The notes under the pieces were generated by a model. It was not told the DNA's origin. It worked only from the letters and a program-made list of their open reading frames with translations, and searched no databases. From a virus, in the IMG/VR virus record IMGVR_UViG_3300044910_000080, positions 1 through 26,411 of that record: a stretch of DNA of 26,411 nucleotides; one strand, given 5' to 3'. Shown in pieces: positions 10,103 through 26,411 of this stretch (position 1 is the stretch's first letter; each line of letters opens with the position of its first letter). The position numbers were made by a program, and so were the translations under genes.

Positions 10103-10474
10103 CTATACCTTAGGCGCTATGACAAATGCAAACTTGTCTATAGGCTCCTCGCTTGAATTATAAACCTTAAATGTTACTTTTACTCTTGCCATTCCAGCAT
10201 TGTCATAATAAACCTCTTGGCTTACTATTGATATATCTCCTACTCCTGGACGATCTTCCCCATCTCCGTCACCGTCTCCATCACCATCTCCTCCGCTTCC
10301 GCCTTCGGTTATGCTAAATGGAAACTTTGCATTTGTAATTATGCCAGTTAATGGTTTGCCACCACGCCATTTGTTAGCTAAAAAATAATCATCGGTAGAA
10401 AATTTATCTACAACAATTGGCGCTACTTCAGATATATCTAAAGAGCTTAATTTTTTATCGGTCTCTTTACCCAT
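10103..10474 (-). CDS. Small tail-module protein with a Gly-Asp linker
   Basis: A 123-residue protein in two parts: residues 1-57 (charged start, then a hydrophobic region with NKWRGGKPLTGIITNAKFPF) and residues 78-123, a small beta domain (VYYDNAGMARVKVTFKVYN, ending FAFVIAPKV). They are joined by a strongly acidic linker of repeated Gly-Asp at about 58-74. There is no Shine-Dalgarno before the ATG at 10474. Instead an extended -10 (TGG plus TATAAT) ends 6 nt upstream, as expected for a leaderless transcript. It could be a small minor tail protein bridging hub and fibre proteins. I do not recognise the family. Confidence 0.62.
   Translation of the reverse strand: MGKETDKKLSSLDISEVAPIVVDKFSTDDYFLANKWRGGKPLTGIITNAKFPFSITEGGSGGDGDGDGDGDGEDRPGVGDISIVSQEVYYDNAGMARVKVTFKVYNSSEEPIDKFAFVIAPKV
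10253..10303 (-). repeat. Short tandem repeat encoding (Gly-Asp)n
   Basis: A 6-nt periodic stretch (GGTGAT/GGAGAC variants on the minus strand) encodes the acidic linker of the 123-residue protein. Such repeats can change in unit number by slippage. Confidence 0.8.
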
Positions 10475-10480
10475 TTATTT

Positions 10481-10489
10481 ATTATACCA
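10481..10489 (-). promoter_or_regulatory. Extended -10 promoter, probably giving a leaderless mRNA
   Basis: On the minus strand TGG is followed by TATAAT (10486-10481) and only six bases later by the ATG at 10474. Transcription about 7 nt after the -10 would start at the A of the ATG. No good -35 is visible, as is common for extended -10 promoters, and no Shine-Dalgarno precedes the ATG. Confidence 0.55.
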
Positions 10490-20818: not shown

Positions 20819-21477
20819 CTACCCCTTGGAGTATCCCAATCCCATTCCGATTCCGAATCCAGCTTCTGAGGCGAACGATCCTTGCAGACTAACTACATCA
20901 TCTGCTGATGCGTTAATCCCAAGTGCTCTCCGCTTGACATCGTCGAACGTAGGACCTGATTTTTCTGCTTCATCGTCCATCGGTATTCCCTTTAGAGATG
21001 CTGCAAACTTTCTCTGGTTGTGCTCTTTTTCATGCATTGATTTCAATGTCTGAATGAGCTCTGGCATTGATAGGTTTTCTTCTAACTCTTCGTAATTCTT
21101 CCAATGTCCTAAAAGAAATACTTCTCCTTCTAAAGCGGCAAGATCTAGTTCTGACCAGCCAGAACCGCTGCCGCTATTAGGTTTGGGTCGTCCATCTTAA
21201 TCCCTCCACATACTTCAAGGATGCGATTGATTGTTGGTACGTCCAATGCTTCTTCTAATGCGTCTCTATCTGATACCAAATCTGGTAACTGTGTTTCTAG
21301 CGCAACTGCACATGCATCAATTAAAATGCTCAATGTTGCATTTTCATCTGTTGATTCTTGAGTCTTTTGTACGGCAGCCATAAATTTACGTAACTGCTTG
21401 ATTGATAATGGCTTTAGTTTTACCTTAGCACCATTTTGTAATTCAATTTCTTCTACGTCGTATACTGTAGTAGCCAA
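20819..21477 (-). CDS. Tail assembly chaperone, long frameshifted form (gpGT-like)
   Basis: This is the fused product made when ribosomes slip -1 at CCCAAAC (21187-21181). They read 99 codons of the first frame, then 120 of the second, for about 219 residues. The second frame is open from the slip site to 20819 and encodes a Gly-Ser-rich joint (PNSGSGSGWSELD), a helical stretch (LEGEVFLLGHWKNYEELEENL) and a charged tail ending GLGYSKG. An ATG at 21067 could begin a separate 82-residue protein, but it has no convincing Shine-Dalgarno and would drop the conserved linker. In siphoviruses the long form, made at low ratio, binds the tape measure protein and recruits tail-tube subunits. The tape measure gene begins 3 nt downstream. 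Confidence 0.85.
21135..21187 (-). promoter_or_regulatory. Programmed -1 ribosomal frameshift signal
   Basis: On the minus strand the heptamer C-CCA-AAC (21187-21181) is in the zero frame of the short chaperone and re-pairs as CCC-AAA after a -1 slip. A 6-nt spacer follows, then a nested stem-loop: outer arms GCGGCA (21174-21169) and TGCCGC (21140-21135), inner arms GTTCTG (21165-21160) and CAGAAC (21153-21148), with a 6-nt loop. The zero-frame TAG lies within the structure at 21147-21145. Confidence 0.88.
21145..21477 (-). CDS. Tail assembly chaperone, short form (gpG-like)
   Basis: A 110-residue zero-frame protein directly upstream of the tape measure region, the standard place for the tail assembly chaperone. 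It begins with a beta hairpin (VYDVEEIELQNGAKVKLKPL), continues with helices (SIKQLRKFMAAVQKTQ, then ALSILIDACAVALETQLPDL) and ends in IAAAVLAGQN just after the slip site. The pattern matches small chaperones that keep the tape measure soluble. The start is a TTG at 21477, supported by AAAGGAGG at ideal spacing. It has its own extended -10 promoter (21504-21532) just after the tail-tube terminator, so it heads the tape-measure operon. Most ribosomes should make this form. Confidence 0.85.
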   Translation of the reverse strand: MATTVYDVEEIELQNGAKVKLKPLSIKQLRKFMAAVQKTQESTDENATLSILIDACAVALETQLPDLVSDRDALEEALDVPTINRILEVCGGIKMDDPNLIAAAVLAGQN

Positions 21478-21503: not shown

Positions 21504-21532
21504 ATTATAACATAAGGATGGTGTGGATACAA
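21504..21532 (-). promoter_or_regulatory. Promoter for the chaperone / tape measure operon
   Basis: On the minus strand TTGTAT (21532-21527), a 17-nt spacer and a perfect TATAAT (21509-21504) with an upstream TGT (extended -10). It starts a few bases after the U-tract of the tail-tube terminator, so it would restart transcription for the tail genes. Confidence 0.65.
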
Positions 21533-21539
21533 ATGAAAA

Positions 21540-21557
21540 GCCCCCATTTCTGGGGGC
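21540..21557 (-). terminator. Intrinsic terminator after the major tail protein
   Basis: A 7-bp GC-rich hairpin (GCCCCCA / TGGGGGC) with a 4-nt loop, followed on the minus strand by TTTT. It lies 25 nt after the tail-tube stop. The U-tract is short, so partial readthrough is likely. Confidence 0.8.
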
Positions 21558-21582
21558 CTTATTTAATAATTAAAATTAATTA

Positions 21583-22317
21583 TTATGCTGGTGTCCAAGC
21601 ACGGTCAATAATCTTACCGTATTCTGAACCTGCGTGAGCTGAGTCACCAGATGGTAGAAGACGGAATGTTACTGGGAATGTGGTTGGAGCAGTACGAGCA
21701 AGCGAGAACTGTGACTGTTGTACTGAAAGAACACGACGTGCATAATATACACGCTCTGTATTTGGAGAAGCTACTGTAGGAGCCTTTCCAATAGCGACAA
21801 GCTGGCGCTCTGTTGGAGCTGCACCAAGTGCACCTGCCTCAAGACCTAGTTCGTCGTTATCTCCTTCTGTCAAAGTTGACTTGCCTTGTCCGAATACAAT
21901 AAGAATATTTTCTAATGTACCTTCGGACATTTCGGTTGCGATCATAACCTCCATCGCAGACTTGAAAAGCTTAGCTGTATCAAGTAGCTGGTCGACGGTT
22001 ACTGAATCGTATGTTGGATTATAAGTGATCTGAAGACCATTATTTGTATAACCAACGTTACGGTATGCGCCTCCATCCTTTGGTGTTGTTCCCTGTGTTG
22101 TGGCAGTTGTTACTGCAACTGCGTTAAGGGTATCAGTGTATGACTCTGAAGTTGAAAATGCTGGAACGAAGCGATTTTTGTTCGCTACGAATGTATTTGC
22201 AACGCCAGCTTCCATGCTCTCATCGTAACCTTCGACTGTAGAATCTTCTACTGAAAGGAACAATGGAGAAGCACCGACAAGAATGTTTTTAGCATTACCT
22301 ACGTTTTGTGCTGCCAT
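21583..22317 (-). CDS. Major tail (tube) protein
   Basis: A 244-residue protein that would polymerise into the tail tube. It begins MAAQNVGNAKNILVGASPLF and has the beta-rich, Thr/Ala-rich make-up of gpV-like tube proteins: an early FLSVEDS strand, a loop region about 70-100 (TTQGTTPKDGGAYRNVGYTN), a helix near 108-130 (VDQLLDTAKLFKSAMEVMIA) and a final strand pair ending SEYGKIIDRAWTPA. Context is strong: it sits between the tail terminator and chaperone genes. AGGAGG lies 9 nt upstream. The gene has its own promoter (22392-22420) and terminator (21540-21557), and looks less AT-rich than its neighbours, with more C-ending codons, as expected for a highly expressed structural gene. Confidence 0.9.
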   Translation of the reverse strand: MAAQNVGNAKNILVGASPLFLSVEDSTVEGYDESMEAGVANTFVANKNRFVPAFSTSESYTDTLNAVAVTTATTQGTTPKDGGAYRNVGYTNNGLQITYNPTYDSVTVDQLLDTAKLFKSAMEVMIATEMSEGTLENILIVFGQGKSTLTEGDNDELGLEAGALGAAPTERQLVAIGKAPTVASPNTERVYYARRVLSVQQSQFSLARTAPTTFPVTFRLLPSGDSAHAGSEYGKIIDRAWTPA

Positions 22318-22391
22318 GAAGTCTAACCTCCTATTTCATGAAATGTTTATATATATATAAATTGCTGGCTAGGCCCTTCCCTCTATGTCCA

Positions 22392-22420
22392 ATTATAGAT
22401 GTCCTAGTCGCCTAAAGCAA
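22392..22420 (-). promoter_or_regulatory. Promoter for the major tail protein
   Basis: On the minus strand TTGCTT (22420-22415), a 17-nt spacer and a perfect TATAAT (22397-22392). The -35 begins right after the stop codon of the tail terminator gene. The predicted leader is about 65 nt and holds an alternating TATATA run and the AGGAGG site. Confidence 0.6.
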
Positions 22421-22421
22421 A

Positions 22422-22931
22422 CTAGGCAAATCTGCCAGAGCTATCAGTTATTCTGGAATATTTTATCTCCAAAATAACATCTGCTGCCAAGAACCCTTGT
22501 AGCTCTTCTGATGGGGCTGTCGGCGACATGTCCGATATAAATATACTGTGAAATTTAAATTTATCTGATAAGCTGTCCCAACGGTTTACGTCTCTAGCAG
22601 AATCATCCATTCTGCGAAACTCATCTGTAAGAAAGTTTCTTATCTCTACAATGTCTAAGATGTCTGTTGAGTATATTGTAAATAATATTTGCTCACAGCA
22701 TATAAGCCAATTGTTTTCATATGACATTCCTATTTTGTCATAGACTATATGCTTTTTGCCACTTAAAAATTGATTCATTTCTGGTGCCTGCTGAATTGGC
22801 AAAATTGGAACTATAGTTTCATTTAAATTGTCACTATAGTAATCATCTGGATCAAATATATTAGCATCTCTTAACTTTTCCCAAAGATACTTTCTGATCT
22901 CAAACATAGCGTCTAATCTATAATTTACCAT
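22422..22931 (-). CDS. Tail terminator / tail completion protein
   Basis: A 169-residue protein placed just before the tail tube gene, where siphoviruses encode the tail terminator that caps the tube and joins it to the head. It opens with a helix (RLDAMFEIRKYLWEKLRDA), as in the gpU/gp17 family, followed by alternating strands (NWLICCEQILFTIYSTD), a second helix (VEIRNFLTDEFRRMDD) and a final beta strand (ADVILEIKYSRI). I use the ATG at 22931, two bases after the upstream stop; a TTG at 22946 would give five extra residues but overlaps the neighbour. Assignment rests on order and secondary-structure pattern. Confidence 0.7.
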   Translation of the reverse strand: MVNYRLDAMFEIRKYLWEKLRDANIFDPDDYYSDNLNETIVPILPIQQAPEMNQFLSGKKHIVYDKIGMSYENNWLICCEQILFTIYSTDILDIVEIRNFLTDEFRRMDDSARDVNRWDSLSDKFKFHSIFISDMSPTAPSEELQGFLAADVILEIKYSRITDSSGRFA

Positions 22932-22932
22932 T

Positions 22933-23715
22933 CTATACCCCCGCAAATGCTGTGCTTACCGCCGCCTCAGCTTGGCTTGCAACTGAATTAGGCGAGAACT
23001 TATATTGTACCGTTTTTATATTAACAGGTATCTTCATTGCTTTTGTTAAAGACGAATTAAATAATCTCTGAAATCCAGAAGCTTTAATTGAGTTGCTAAC
23101 TAAATTGCTGGTAAAAAAATATTTATATGCTGATAAAAAAGAATTTTTTGTTGCTGCTCCACCAGGCTTTTGTACAGTTACAGATTTTCCTTTGGGCATA
23201 AAAACAGTATATCCGTTTACATCAAAAACGAGTCTCTCTGCTGATCTAGGGGATATTACAACTGGCTTGCCCTGTTCCATAATTTCTGCTTTGCTAACAA
23301 AGACATGTCTATGCTTGCCCTTTTTAGTTGGAACCATGGACTTTGAAGGCAGAAGGTTATAATTGATTTGAAAAGACATTACGCCTTCAGAAATTTTGTT
23401 TAACTTAAAAAGCCTAGCTTCCTTGTCACCAACTCTTTGCCATTCATATACATGGTGCATTGACCTTGGAGAAGTTCTTGCTTTCGCATCTATGTACTGG
23501 CCAAAATCCTGTTCGATTTGCTTAAATATAGTTTTTGCAAATGCTCTATTAAATGATGTGCTGTTTGTTAATTTTGCTACAACATTTGCTTGATAAAATA
23601 TTGCTGCGGAAACCTGGGCCACAGTACTATCTTTAATTGCTCCGTCAACTCGTTGTCCCGCCATTAACTTTGTTAATCCGCTGGCTGCTTGTAATAGTAA
23701 TTTATCAGATGCCAA
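22933..23715 (-). CDS. HK97 gp10-like head-tail joining / tail completion protein
   Basis: A 260-residue protein in the slot between head closure and tail terminator genes, usually held by HK97-gp10-type proteins. It is basic (many Lys, few acidic residues), with an N-terminal helix and a central beta region (EARLFKLNKISEGVMSFQIN, KHRHVFVSKAEIMEQGKPV, VFMPKGKSVTVQKPGG). It is longer than typical gp10 proteins (about 110-150 residues), so it carries extra N- and C-terminal parts. The start is a TTG at 23715 with GGAGAA about 8 nt upstream; the first ATG (codon 18) has no ribosome site. It overlaps the upstream gene by 11 nt. Confidence 0.65.
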   Translation of the reverse strand: MASDKLLLQAASGLTKLMAGQRVDGAIKDSTVAQVSAAIFYQANVVAKLTNSTSFNRAFAKTIFKQIEQDFGQYIDAKARTSPRSMHHVYEWQRVGDKEARLFKLNKISEGVMSFQINYNLLPSKSMVPTKKGKHRHVFVSKAEIMEQGKPVVISPRSAERLVFDVNGYTVFMPKGKSVTVQKPGGAATKNSFLSAYKYFFTSNLVSNSIKASGFQRLFNSSLTKAMKIPVNIKTVQYKFSPNSVASQAEAAVSTAFAGV

Positions 23716-24133
23716 TTTGCTGGTTCTCCGATCTTCTTACAGATGAGTTATATCCTAAAACCGATCCAAATGGATCTGTTATTGGTGTGGTTCCTACGAC
23801 TTCAAAAACAGTTGGGCTGTTGGTTGGAAAGTTTATCTCAGTCCAAACACATTCTCCTCTTGAATCCCTTATATTTGTTATCTTTTCTCTTATTGTAAGT
23901 CTGTCTTTAGTTCTTATCTGAAGTATTTGATCATTATAGTATCTATTGTCGAATACCTGCTTATCGCTAGTTCTTGTTGTAGCTGAGTTGCTTATTACTC
24001 CTTTAGCATGACAGTCTAAAGTTTTATCATAAATCCATTCTTTTTTTATAGAACCAGTGTTTGCGTCCTGAATATCAATCTGCTTATATACATCCAGCTT
24101 CATTGATAAAACTGCATTAATAACTGATGACAT
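23705..24133 (-). CDS. Head closure (head-tail adaptor) protein
   Basis: A 142-residue protein that fits the small beta-barrel head closure proteins (SPP1 gp16/HK97 gp7 type) that plug the connector: MKLDVYKQ near the start, then EWIYDKTLDCHAKGVISN, an ILQIRTKDRLTIREKITNI core with the RxxD...IR pattern of these barrels, and a strand near the end (TVFEVVGTTPITDPFG). The ATG shares one base with the upstream connector stop (TAATG) and no separate Shine-Dalgarno is evident, so translation is coupled. The 3' end overlaps the next gene. Confidence 0.72.
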   Translation of the reverse strand: MSSVINAVLSMKLDVYKQIDIQDANTGSIKKEWIYDKTLDCHAKGVISNSATTRTSDKQVFDNRYYNDQILQIRTKDRLTIREKITNIRDSRGECVWTEINFPTNSPTVFEVVGTTPITDPFGSVLGYNSSVRRSENQQIGI

Positions 24134-25116
24134 TATATCAATGAGGCTTTGTTTACAATGAAGTCAGACAATAGTCGGTCAGCGTAAGCATTACCCGTTC
24201 CCATAAAAACTTCTGGACTGTATTCAAACTGCCAGTCAAAAGTTTGTATTGTTGAAATATATTGATTCTTCCAAGTGTTATCCTTTGCGAAGAAATCTTT
24301 CATTAATTCTATAGCTGCAAGCTCTACCTTGTCTGGAACCTTCTTCCATCCGAACTTGCCTTGAACTTCATACATCGCACCGTTTTTAAATACACCTTGA
24401 CCATCATGTATTGTTGGTGGAACCATTCCATTTGCAATATAGACAGTATTATCTAACATTTCTGCTCTATTAACTCTTATACCAAAGCCAGTTTCTGAAA
24501 CCTGTACGTTGTATCCCCAATTATTTACTGCTGGGTAGGCAGTGTTATCTATTAAAACAATATCATTTAAGTATAGCTTATGAATTGTGTGAAGACGATC
24601 TGGTAATGGCAAGGTGTCAGAACCAGTTCCCATGACTCTATGTATATCGCTATACAGATAAAATTGTTGTCCAGTATAATCTTCTATTCTCTGTCTAGCA
24701 TATCGTTCTGCCGCTGCTAGCTCTGAAAAAGATTTATAATTTGGATCTGAAGGATCTGTGCTTACACCAAGCATGTAGGCAGACTGGTATAAATCTGCAT
24801 ATGGCGTCACTACAAAAACATCATGACGGTAGGTAAACTCTTCAGAATCTACCTCATAAATCCAAACAAGTCTTAGAGTACCTGTGTTGCTTGTATATGG
24901 CAAAGGTATGTGTGCTGCATACAGACCAATATTTGTTTCATCTTTTTCAGCAGTAATAGTATCTAATAAAATTGTTAAGCCAGGATTTTCTTCTTCTGGA
25001 GTTTCAGTGATATCGTATATCTCTACTGTTGGTAGATTGTCTGCATCAACAACATTTCCTCTCCAGAATACCTGATGATAAACTGGGGAATTGCTATTTT
25101 TTAATATCTCTGCCAT
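24133..25116 (-). CDS. Head-tail connector (adaptor) protein with N-terminal Ig-like extension
   Basis: A 327-residue protein. Residues about 1-105 look like a beta-sandwich (VYHQVFWRGNVVDADNLPTV, TNIGLYAAHIPLPYTSNTGT, LVWIYEVDSEEFTYRHDVFV). Residues about 125-325 resemble the helical HK97 gp6/SPP1 gp15 adaptor: SELAAAERYARQRIEDYTGQ, a beta insert with PLPDRLHTIHKLYL, and a final helix set (ELAAIELMKDFFA). Adaptors form a ring under the portal, and here the Ig-like extension may decorate the neck. The ATG at 25116 is 9 nt after the previous stop and has only a weak purine run. The length exceeds a bare adaptor (about 100-200 residues) because of the extension. Confidence 0.75.
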   Translation of the reverse strand: MAEILKNSNSPVYHQVFWRGNVVDADNLPTVEIYDITETPEEENPGLTILLDTITAEKDETNIGLYAAHIPLPYTSNTGTLRLVWIYEVDSEEFTYRHDVFVVTPYADLYQSAYMLGVSTDPSDPNYKSFSELAAAERYARQRIEDYTGQQFYLYSDIHRVMGTGSDTLPLPDRLHTIHKLYLNDIVLIDNTAYPAVNNWGYNVQVSETGFGIRVNRAEMLDNTVYIANGMVPPTIHDGQGVFKNGAMYEVQGKFGWKKVPDKVELAAIELMKDFFAKDNTWKNQYISTIQTFDWQFEYSPEVFMGTGNAYADRLLSDFIVNKASLI

Positions 25117-25125
25117 TTAATAGGC

Positions 25126-25524
25126 TTAGTTGTAGAACTCTCTTACTTCTGCTGGAGTTGCTAATCTAAAGCCCTCCTCCTTGTCAAAAATTCTTTGAGC
25201 GTCTTCCTTGCCCATAGCGACAAATGGATGCTCTTTAGTAAATGTCTTACCCATTATATCGTATCTAAAATTATTTCTTGTCATTCTAACAAGCACTTCG
25301 TCTGCAGAAATATCTTTATTTGGGTCAAACTTTGGAAGCACAGTAGGAGCTTCTTCTTTTGCCTCTTCAATATTCTTTAATGTGCTTTGGTATACTGACC
25401 ATGTTACGCCTTCTTCTGCAAGAGCGGCTACTATATCGGCCTTGTTTTTTAGACCATCTGTATCAACTGCAAAGTCCTCTGCAATTTTCTTTAATTCTTT
25501 TACCTTTAATGTCTCGAATGACAT
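25126..25524 (-). CDS. Head-module protein with SAP/HeH-like N-terminal domain
   Basis: A 132-residue protein between the capsid and connector genes. Residues 3-38 (ETLKVKELKKIAEDFAVDTD, then GLKNKADIVAALAEEG) match the helix-extension-helix of SAP/LEM/HeH/Rho-N-type domains, which often bind nucleic acid. The middle is a Pro/Glu linker, and residues 80-132 hold a conserved-looking block (VRMTRNNFRYDIMGKTF, then FDKEEGFRLATPAEVREFYN) seen at the C terminus of head-completion proteins in actinophages, from memory. AAGGAG precedes the ATG at 25524 and an extended -10 promoter lies upstream. It may attach to the capsid or packaged DNA; the exact role is unknown. Confidence 0.62.
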   Translation of the reverse strand: MSFETLKVKELKKIAEDFAVDTDGLKNKADIVAALAEEGVTWSVYQSTLKNIEEAKEEAPTVLPKFDPNKDISADEVLVRMTRNNFRYDIMGKTFTKEHPFVAMGKEDAQRIFDKEEGFRLATPAEVREFYN

Positions 25525-25551
25525 ATATTCTCCTTAATCTAGGTAACAATA

Positions 25552-25580
25552 ATTATAGCATTACTGGGTTAAAAGGAAAA
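25552..25580 (-). promoter_or_regulatory. Extended -10 promoter for the head-completion genes
   Basis: On the minus strand a perfect TATAAT (25557-25552) follows TGC; the -35 17 nt upstream is weak (TTTTCC). The 12-mer TAATGCTATAAT (25563-25552) is identical to the -10 region of the consensus promoter at 1277-1288. It lies just after the capsid terminator. Confidence 0.6.
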
Positions 25581-25603
25581 GCCCCCAAATTTAATTTAGG
25601 GGC
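25581..25603 (-). terminator. Intrinsic terminator after the major capsid protein
   Basis: Hairpin with arms GGGGC/GCCCC and AAAT/ATTT, one mismatch between them and a 3-nt loop; on the minus strand it is followed by TTTTCCTTTT. It lies 25 nt after the capsid stop. It shares its GGGGGCTTTTC base with the tail-tube terminator. Confidence 0.75.
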
Positions 25604-25628
25604 CTTTCAGCAGTTTAATTCCTATAAA

Positions 25629-26411
25629 TTAGGAAGCAACCTTAACGTTCTTAACGACAACCCATGCATCTGCTTGCTCAATTTGGGTTCCGACACGGGT
25701 ATACATTGTATACTCAATCGAATCCTTCTTTGGCCAGAAGAAGCGATAAACTGTAACGTCACGCTTGATACCAATAACTACGTTATTAGGGAATGTCAAG
25801 TGTACGTCACCATGGTTACCTGATGGAGTGTCATAATCTCCAGCTTGTGTCTCAGGAAGTAGTGGCACTTCAACAATCGGAATACCGAATGCGAATGGTG
25901 CTACGAATCCAGCTGGGCCACCAAGACCTGGCTGATCTCCACGGATAATGCTTGAAGCGATATCCTGTGGGTTTACGTTCTGGATATTTTGTGATGTTGA
26001 ATACAAATAATCCTGAATCAAGTTTGATCCTGATAGGAAGCGGAGATCTGGTCTACGCTGCTTGTACTTACGTGGCAAAGCCTTAAGGGCATTGTTGAAT
26101 ACTTCACGGGATACGTTAGCACCCTCAGCATCAACTACATGTCCGTTTGTCTTTGCAATCTTAACTACGCCGTCAAACGCCTTGTATAGCTGGTCAGAGC
26201 TTAGTGCAGTATTTCCATTGAGGATTACATCTTCAATGTCGTTACCTGCCTGAGTTGCCATCATACGTGCGATATGATCTTCTAGATCAGCACCTTCAAT
26301 GTTGTCTTCAAGAGATTCTGTTGAAAGCTCCCAATCTAGGCGAAGCTTCTTTGTTGTAAGAGAAATCTTGGAGAAGGTGACTGCAGCATTACCACTGTTT
26401 GTGTTATCTGC
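25629..26411 (-). CDS. Major capsid protein (HK97-like fold), partial
   Basis: The frame is open from the right edge to the TAA at 25629, giving 260 residues; the true N terminus lies outside. An internal ATG at 26264 is not the start, since upstream codons in the same frame continue as ...SKISLTTKKLRLDWELSTES, a motif typical of HK97-fold capsid proteins, followed by helix-like LEDNIEGADLEDHIARMMAT and GNDIEDVILNG (the spine helix and nearby loop). The C terminus ends in strands (VRVGTQIEQADAWVVVKNVK in the YTMYTRVG region). It would form the capsid shell. The coding sequence looks less AT-rich than neighbours, with codons fitting high expression. A terminator follows. Confidence 0.88.
   Translation of the reverse strand, partial: ADNTNSGNAAVTFSKISLTTKKLRLDWELSTESLEDNIEGADLEDHIARMMATQAGNDIEDVILNGNTALSSDQLYKAFDGVVKIAKTNGHVVDAEGANVSREVFNNALKALPRKYKQRRPDLRFLSGSNLIQDYLYSTSQNIQNVNPQDIASSIIRGDQPGLGGPAGFVAPFAFGIPIVEVPLLPETQAGDYDTPSGNHGDVHLTFPNNVVIGIKRDVTVYRFFWPKKDSIEYTMYTRVGTQIEQADAWVVVKNVKVAS

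Follow-up and report, generated by a model that had tools for sequence, protein, structure and literature searches.

Introduction

How tailed phages obtain the right ratio of capsid to tail-tube subunits, which are needed in hundreds of copies, from a single operon is largely unexplained. Several described systems bear on this question. Phage T7 has a promoter just before gene 10, long-distance RNA pairing couples coat and replicase in the levivirus MS2, and the STAB-SD or 5′ polypurine stabilisers are purine-rich segments, resembling a Shine-Dalgarno (SD) sequence, near the 5′ end of a messenger RNA (mRNA). A terminator stands immediately after T7 gene 10 (PMC6171733). In the hly-prsA2 system of Listeria, as summarised in a review (PMC8079631) of work by Ignatov et al. 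2020, prsA2 mRNA is shielded from RNase J1 by pairing at its distal 5′ end, with ribosome binding unaffected. Here we set beside these systems a 26,411-base stretch of viral DNA, the complete IMG/VR record IMGVR_UViG_3300044910_000080 (the window), and consider both the terminator and promoter signals that follow its capsid and tail-tube genes and the 5′ leader of its tube mRNA.

Results

Throughout a large group of actinobacterial phages, the predicted tube mRNA nearly always opens with ~10–20 nucleotides (nt) whose reverse complement is found ~45–110 nt upstream of the capsid start. In the window the genes and signals of this operon are all on the minus strand. The tail tube (major tail protein) gene occupies 21583–22317 (PHROG 2175; homologues annotated ‘major tail protein’), and the putative 5′-terminal pairing segment of its leader, GAGGGAAGGGCC, lies at 22372–22383, 8 nt past the −10 hexamer. 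Its partner falls outside the window, which ends inside the capsid gene, and was taken from contig G001 (62,649 bases, locus L001), which is near-identical to the window (~18 mismatches over its first ~14.9 kb, beyond which an indel breaks the ungapped comparison). With the capsid-upstream segment of G001 (within 30913–30935; L004 class), the window segment forms 12 pairs, including 3 G-U.

For comparison, 157 related loci were fetched and their junctions extracted, with more distant relatives added later. The closest named relatives are Stanwilliamsviridae of Streptomyces, whose tube proteins are about 40–44% identical, and Trinavirus-type phages of Rhodococcus. At the protease-capsid boundary the freshwater phages carry an unusually invariant CTTTCCTC, the reverse complement of GAGGAAAG in the tube leader. 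The Streptomyces phages have CTTCCTC at the capsid side and GAGGAAG in the leader; Trina has AATCCTACC and GGTAGGATT at these two places, and NiceHouse has TCTTACGGT and ACCGTAAGA. Such sites are rare in whole genomes, and three of the four copies of GGTAGGAT in Trina fall in the capsid-upstream and tube-leader regions. The sequence thus varies by lineage with complementarity retained (leader/capsid side: GAGGAAAG/CTTTCCTC, TGAAGCGTTCC/GGAACGCTTCA, GGTAAGATAC/GTATCTTACC), and one-sided changes to G-U occur in the pairing segments. Even where both genes are present and the leader lacks the common element described below (28 loci), nearly all retain a matching pair, among them TGAAGCGTTCC/GGAACGCTTCA, GGTGAAGCGATC/GATCGCTTCACC, TAGGAAGAAA/TTTCTTCCTA, TTGGAAGAAG/CTTCTTCCAA, GAGGAATGATC/GATCATTCCTC, TGACGAAGGT/ACCTTCGTCA and GGTAAGATAC/GTATCTTACC.

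The strength of this correspondence was measured by scoring the strongest ungapped duplex that tube leader and capsid-upstream region can form, with the same maximisation applied to every pairing and cognate pairs compared with permuted ones; RNAduplex with unlimited bulges was dropped because it gave over-long alignments. In 21 sequence classes, hand-picked for distinct sequences, cognate pairs scored 590.9 against 426.8 ± 18.1 for permuted pairs (z 9.1, 0/20,000), a comparison over classes that lessens but does not remove the non-independence of related sequences. Held-out loci, fetched once the idea had arisen and thinned by a fixed similarity rule, gave z 8.5 (N=25, 0/20,000), and the held-out leaders without GAGGAA gave z 4.0 (N=8, 10/20,000). 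Controls were null: z was 1.6 for the leader against the antisense of the capsid-upstream region (same-strand similarity), 0.9 for the leader against the protease interior and −1.1 against the capsid start, 0.2 for the gene upstream of tube and −0.5 for tube start codons against the capsid-upstream region, and 0.4 to 1.0 for all combinations with the other two promoter regions.

The leader segment starts 4–11 nt (mostly 4–8) past the best −10 hexamer, near the predicted transcript start, and would therefore form the 5′ terminus of the tube mRNA; its core begins 45–97 nt upstream of the tube start codon, with start codons of unannotated genes set by a simple rule under which a few positions may be off. 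Its counterpart falls in the last protease codons in most lineages but coincides with or follows the protease stop codon in the phages of Rhodococcus, so that protein conservation cannot explain the complementarity. Judged by position, neither the capsid nor the tube ribosome-binding site is covered. Farther upstream of capsid, in the protease 3′ coding region (L001:2400–2560), a second block, AAGAAGTCCTCNGACCTTGGCGGGTC, likewise shows strong conservation at third positions of codons among the freshwater phages.

Two segments 4–6 kb apart that change in coordination, in many versions and with tolerance of G-U, point to base-pairing RNA and are hard to fit to a DNA-binding protein. We therefore regard it as highly improbable that the segments are inverted operators, copies of one regulator binding site placed before capsid and at the tube start. 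Trina does offer something to this explanation, as its tube −10 is directly preceded by an additional copy of AATCCTACC in inverted orientation (L301:6895–6945), so that AATCCTACC and GGTAGGATT flank the promoter. However, an operator would have to accommodate more than 10 different site sequences that are always inverted and tolerate G-U, and the tested sites occur 3–7 times per genome (Trina, NiceHouse, Navo), with the copies elsewhere all inside genes. No single conserved site common to related phages was found, many sequence versions being present instead, and a protein operator is accordingly disfavoured.

From this coordinated change we infer that the capsid and tube messages pair as RNA. 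A contact in trans would be its simplest form, because a terminator and the tube gene’s own start site lie between the segments. The alternative is pairing in cis on a read-through late transcript, which would carry both segments and enclose the capsid-connector block in a long-range stem that RNase III might cleave, as it does in pre-rRNA. Both segments do lie on one strand about 4–6 kb apart, the duplex can be extended in two or three blocks in some loci (L395, L388, L147), and some pairs fall immediately before the probable start site (GAAC, L057 class). The intervening terminator and tube promoter count against it, as does the coincidence of the segment with the tube start site in almost every class, which is what a free 5′ end would lead one to expect; we consider pairing in cis possible, if on the unlikely side. 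In trans or in cis alike, the pairing is maintained by covariation, as would be expected of a prsA2-type riboregulator, and it involves a segment at the distal predicted 5′ end that leaves the ribosome-binding site free.

The tube leader holds further constrained features. In alignment, the upstream region reads TTGCYT-N17-TANNAT followed by a near-invariant GAGGAAA-(0–6 nt)-GCCTAGCCAGC. Among the fetched loci the 11-mer GCCTAGCCAGC was counted 136 times, never on the opposite strand, and it lies 41–87 nt upstream of the tube start in loci where a tube gene was found. A database pattern scan placed the element in 119 loci, with a tube gene downstream in 114, a contig end intervening in 4 and a chance match in 1; of 38 complete or long records, 33 carry one copy of it and 5 lack that exact form. 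As a host or widespread motif it was rejected, since its 22 matches in bacterial and archaeal genomes are scattered among unrelated taxa, consistent with chance. The element was not seen at the tail gene of Weaselvirus or Vibrio D4, which have a related capsid.

Adjacent to the pairing segment is a predicted hairpin (22364–22374) with an invariant 7-nt loop, CUAGCCA (22372–22366). Its stem has 2 bp only in the window copy and at least 3 in most relatives; both sides changed in 5/5 pairs, with a covariation score of 0.300 against 0.121 ± 0.015 for shuffled (0/500) and ≤0.110 for slid alignments. On this sequence evidence, most lineages carry a covarying leader hairpin. Rfam gave no match at the gathering score (best window match 31 bits against a cut-off of 55; none in L319 10700–16400), and the sequence that could partner the loop in trans (TGGCTAG) is absent from the coding strand of G001. 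In Navo (L300:5920–5975) and other Samistivirus/Karimacvirus leaders, the pairing segment can also pair locally, TCTTGAGGAAGTG with a downstream CACTTTTTCAAGA, enclosing the CUAGCCA hairpin; a leader with two states is possible in these phages.

The two junctions of the operon are themselves strongly punctuated. In the window the capsid stop codon (25629–25631) is followed by a terminator hairpin at 25577–25607 and an extended −10, TGCTATAAT, at 25552–25560, upstream of the start at 25524 of gp2, the first gene of the connector block (25126–25524). The tube stop (21583–21585) is followed by a hairpin at 21537–21560 (10 bp, 6 of them G-C, with TTTT next), conserved in relatives with changed stems, and then by the promoter of the chaperone/tape-measure block at 21504–21532, TTGTAT (21532–21527)-N17-TATAAT with TG (TGTTATAAT at 21512–21504), upstream of the chaperone start at 21477. 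The sequence-only reading had proposed a terminator and extended −10 after each of these genes, and its positions were right to within a few bases. Its hairpins stand, at measured distances of 21 nt (capsid) and 22 nt (tube) past the stop codons rather than the 25 nt given for both; the few bases it allowed between terminator and extended −10 are in fact about 14–30 nt from stem to −10. The additional promoter it described before the tube gene was also found, as TTGCTT-N17-TATAAT at 22420–22392, with the −35 at 22415–22420 and the −10 at 22392–22397. The 17-nt spacing and a TTGCYT −35 are kept throughout the freshwater alignment, with the −10 conserved as TANNAT; in the window this promoter is not an extended −10. 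The −35 position of the capsid module coincides with the terminator T tract, and the tube module has a TTGTA-type −35 17 nt from its −10.

Generic scans of the window yielded no excess of promoter-like sites (51 against 51.6 expected from shuffles) or terminator-like sites (7 against 9.9), and TGNTATAAT occurs 6 times against 2.6 expected, a count reached by 7 of 100 shuffles. Since signals in a single sequence could be chance, the evidence that they are real is comparative. A terminator followed by TGNTATAAT is present in all 69 distinct freshwater capsid/gp2 junctions, compared with 3.2% (terminator) and 0.9% (TGNTATAAT) of dinucleotide shuffles of capsid junctions. Among the distinct freshwater tube/chaperone junctions under 150 nt, 62/66 have TGNTANNNT and 60/66 pass the scripted terminator rule; in the remaining six a G+C-rich hairpin is visible by eye with fewer Ts behind it. 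In the named phages the script found the capsid terminator in 15 of 16 (it is visible in the 16th), and TGNTANNNT lies downstream of the hairpin in 14/16 capsid and 14/16 tube junctions. Phages of the high-GC hosts Streptomyces and Rhodococcus have the same layout, with the Dorin tube junction as one clear exception, and the punctuation is kept down to about 40% protein identity in low- and high-GC phages. Hairpin, T tract and downstream TGNTANNNT together have the form of an intrinsic terminator with sigma-70 extended −10 re-initiation, and comparison of these sequences confirms that the signals at both junctions are real and strongly conserved.

That punctuation alone sets the amounts of capsid and tube, with the leader sequence incidental, we nevertheless think unlikely. 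The conserved modules at both junctions speak for it, as does the T7 precedent of a terminator right after capsid gene 10, and conserved punctuation does bracket the two most abundant virion proteins, which upholds part of the sequence-only proposal that it fixes stoichiometry. The other part lacks support, as capsid has no conserved extended −10 of its own: in none of the loci tested do the 700 nt ahead of the aligned capsid position contain TGNTATAAT. On the capsid strand of G001, intergenic extended −10 sites precede, among others, a large gene at 25783 and the genes at 47188 and 56398, and further ones follow capsid (32102) and tube (36150); of these the nearest one ahead of capsid is that of the gene at 25783, well upstream. 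Going by these sites, capsid appears to be transcribed together with portal and protease. Punctuation therefore cannot raise capsid above portal or protease and can only lower what comes after capsid. Nor does punctuation predict the covariation of leader and capsid-upstream region across lineages. The punctuation is most naturally read as giving a monocistronic tube mRNA. The 5′ leader pairing with the capsid-upstream region, together with the adjacent covarying hairpin, looks to be the most constrained feature of the tube promoter, one that the sequence-only reading overlooked.

Along the minus strand of the window the cut capsid gene comes first, followed by five head-tail genes, the tail tube, the tail chaperones, a tape measure of 2,161 aa and more tail genes. 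The 3′ part of the major capsid gene lies at 25629–26411 (PHROG 1623 head protein, E 1e-70; synteny) and a tail assembly chaperone gene at 21145–21477 (PHROG 344 and 10504). Two tail-chaperone frames are present at 20819–21477; annotations of Sham, Dorin and NiceHouse give a joined product, as with a programmed frameshift. An A+T-only inverted repeat (TAATAATTAATTTTAATTATTA, 21564–21585) overlaps the tube stop, where freshwater relatives have other A+T-rich inverted repeats. Elsewhere, a full-consensus sigma-70 promoter, TTGACA-N16-TATAAT with TG (TGCTATAAT), at 1277–1305 stands directly upstream of a gene ending at 1267, and a further intergenic TGGTATAAT on the coding strand (10481–10489) precedes the gene at 10103–10474, with a matching site in G001 at 47173.

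Discussion

Taken together, these observations suggest a late operon divided into transcription units by conserved terminator-promoter modules after capsid and after tube, in which the tube gene’s own promoter would give rise to a short tube mRNA. Covariation shows that pairing of the extreme 5′ end of this mRNA with a stretch of the protease-capsid transcript ahead of capsid has been kept by coordinated change. Most probably it takes the form of a contact in trans that would protect the tube 5′ end, the capsid message or both, and so tie tube output to capsid output; the adjacent CUAGCCA hairpin probably holds the 5′ tail single-stranded or acts as a second contact. That neither ribosome-binding site is covered argues for an effect on stability, processing or co-localisation and not for direct blocking. 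We regard this whole explanation, a punctuated operon with a most likely protective trans contact that links tube to capsid output, as an evenly balanced proposition. We hold with about half confidence that a contact in trans between the 5′ end of the tube message and the capsid message, tying their amounts, is family-wide and kept in phages of Streptomyces and Rhodococcus and in uncultured freshwater and soil phages.

Several points weigh against this explanation. Some loci give 6–7 bp only or rank poorly (L198, L208, L276, L373), and in Coruscant and NiceHouse another segment slightly outscores the expected one. The capsid-side segment is mostly unpaired in predicted local folds, yet these folds are weak (mean z −0.7); a hairpin there was set aside as a conserved structure, being suggestive only and strong only in Dorin (−3.2) and NiceHouse (−2.3). 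Further, the contact is known from covariation only, in which protection, repression and processing would look alike. In one repressive form, the tube mRNA would act in antisense to reduce the synthesis of capsid or protease late in infection, and the location of the target in the last protease codons, just ahead of capsid in most lineages, is compatible with it. We nonetheless find it decidedly improbable, as the capsid ribosome-binding site is not covered and lowering the most needed protein seems unlikely.

If the link is real, DNA phages would have a conserved contact between mRNAs; none was found described in the open-access literature searched, where transcriptomes of Streptomyces phages and leaders of phage tube genes yielded nothing relevant either. 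The diversity of metagenomic phages yields very strong covariation for a contact between distant transcript segments, and the sequences indicate a specific post-transcriptional link between the capsid and tube messages that can be tested, in phages that grow on ordinary laboratory strains of Streptomyces.

Each of the described systems shares part of this arrangement. As in T7, a terminator directly follows the major capsid gene; T7, however, has its own RNA polymerase, whereas these phages have sigma-70-type signals and re-initiate right after the terminator, and in the loci checked the 700 nt ahead of capsid hold no extended −10. The GAGGAA segment is purine-rich, SD-like and close to the mRNA 5′ end, as in STAB-SD elements. 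Unlike them, it changes freely (TGACGAAGGT, ACCGTAAGA) while keeping its partner, so that SD-likeness is not the conserved feature. MS2 likewise uses long-range base pairing between genes to control relative output, although there the coupling is translational and in cis on the genomic RNA of an RNA phage, and here it would involve the mRNAs of a DNA phage. The nearest described system, as far as the review presents it, is hly-prsA2 of Listeria monocytogenes, from which we infer, by analogy, the function in these phages. In Listeria the pairing partner is a 3′ UTR (untranslated region) and protection from RNase J1 was shown experimentally, whereas the phage partner lies upstream of capsid and is recognised from covariation only; what the two would have in common is that they link two products used together.

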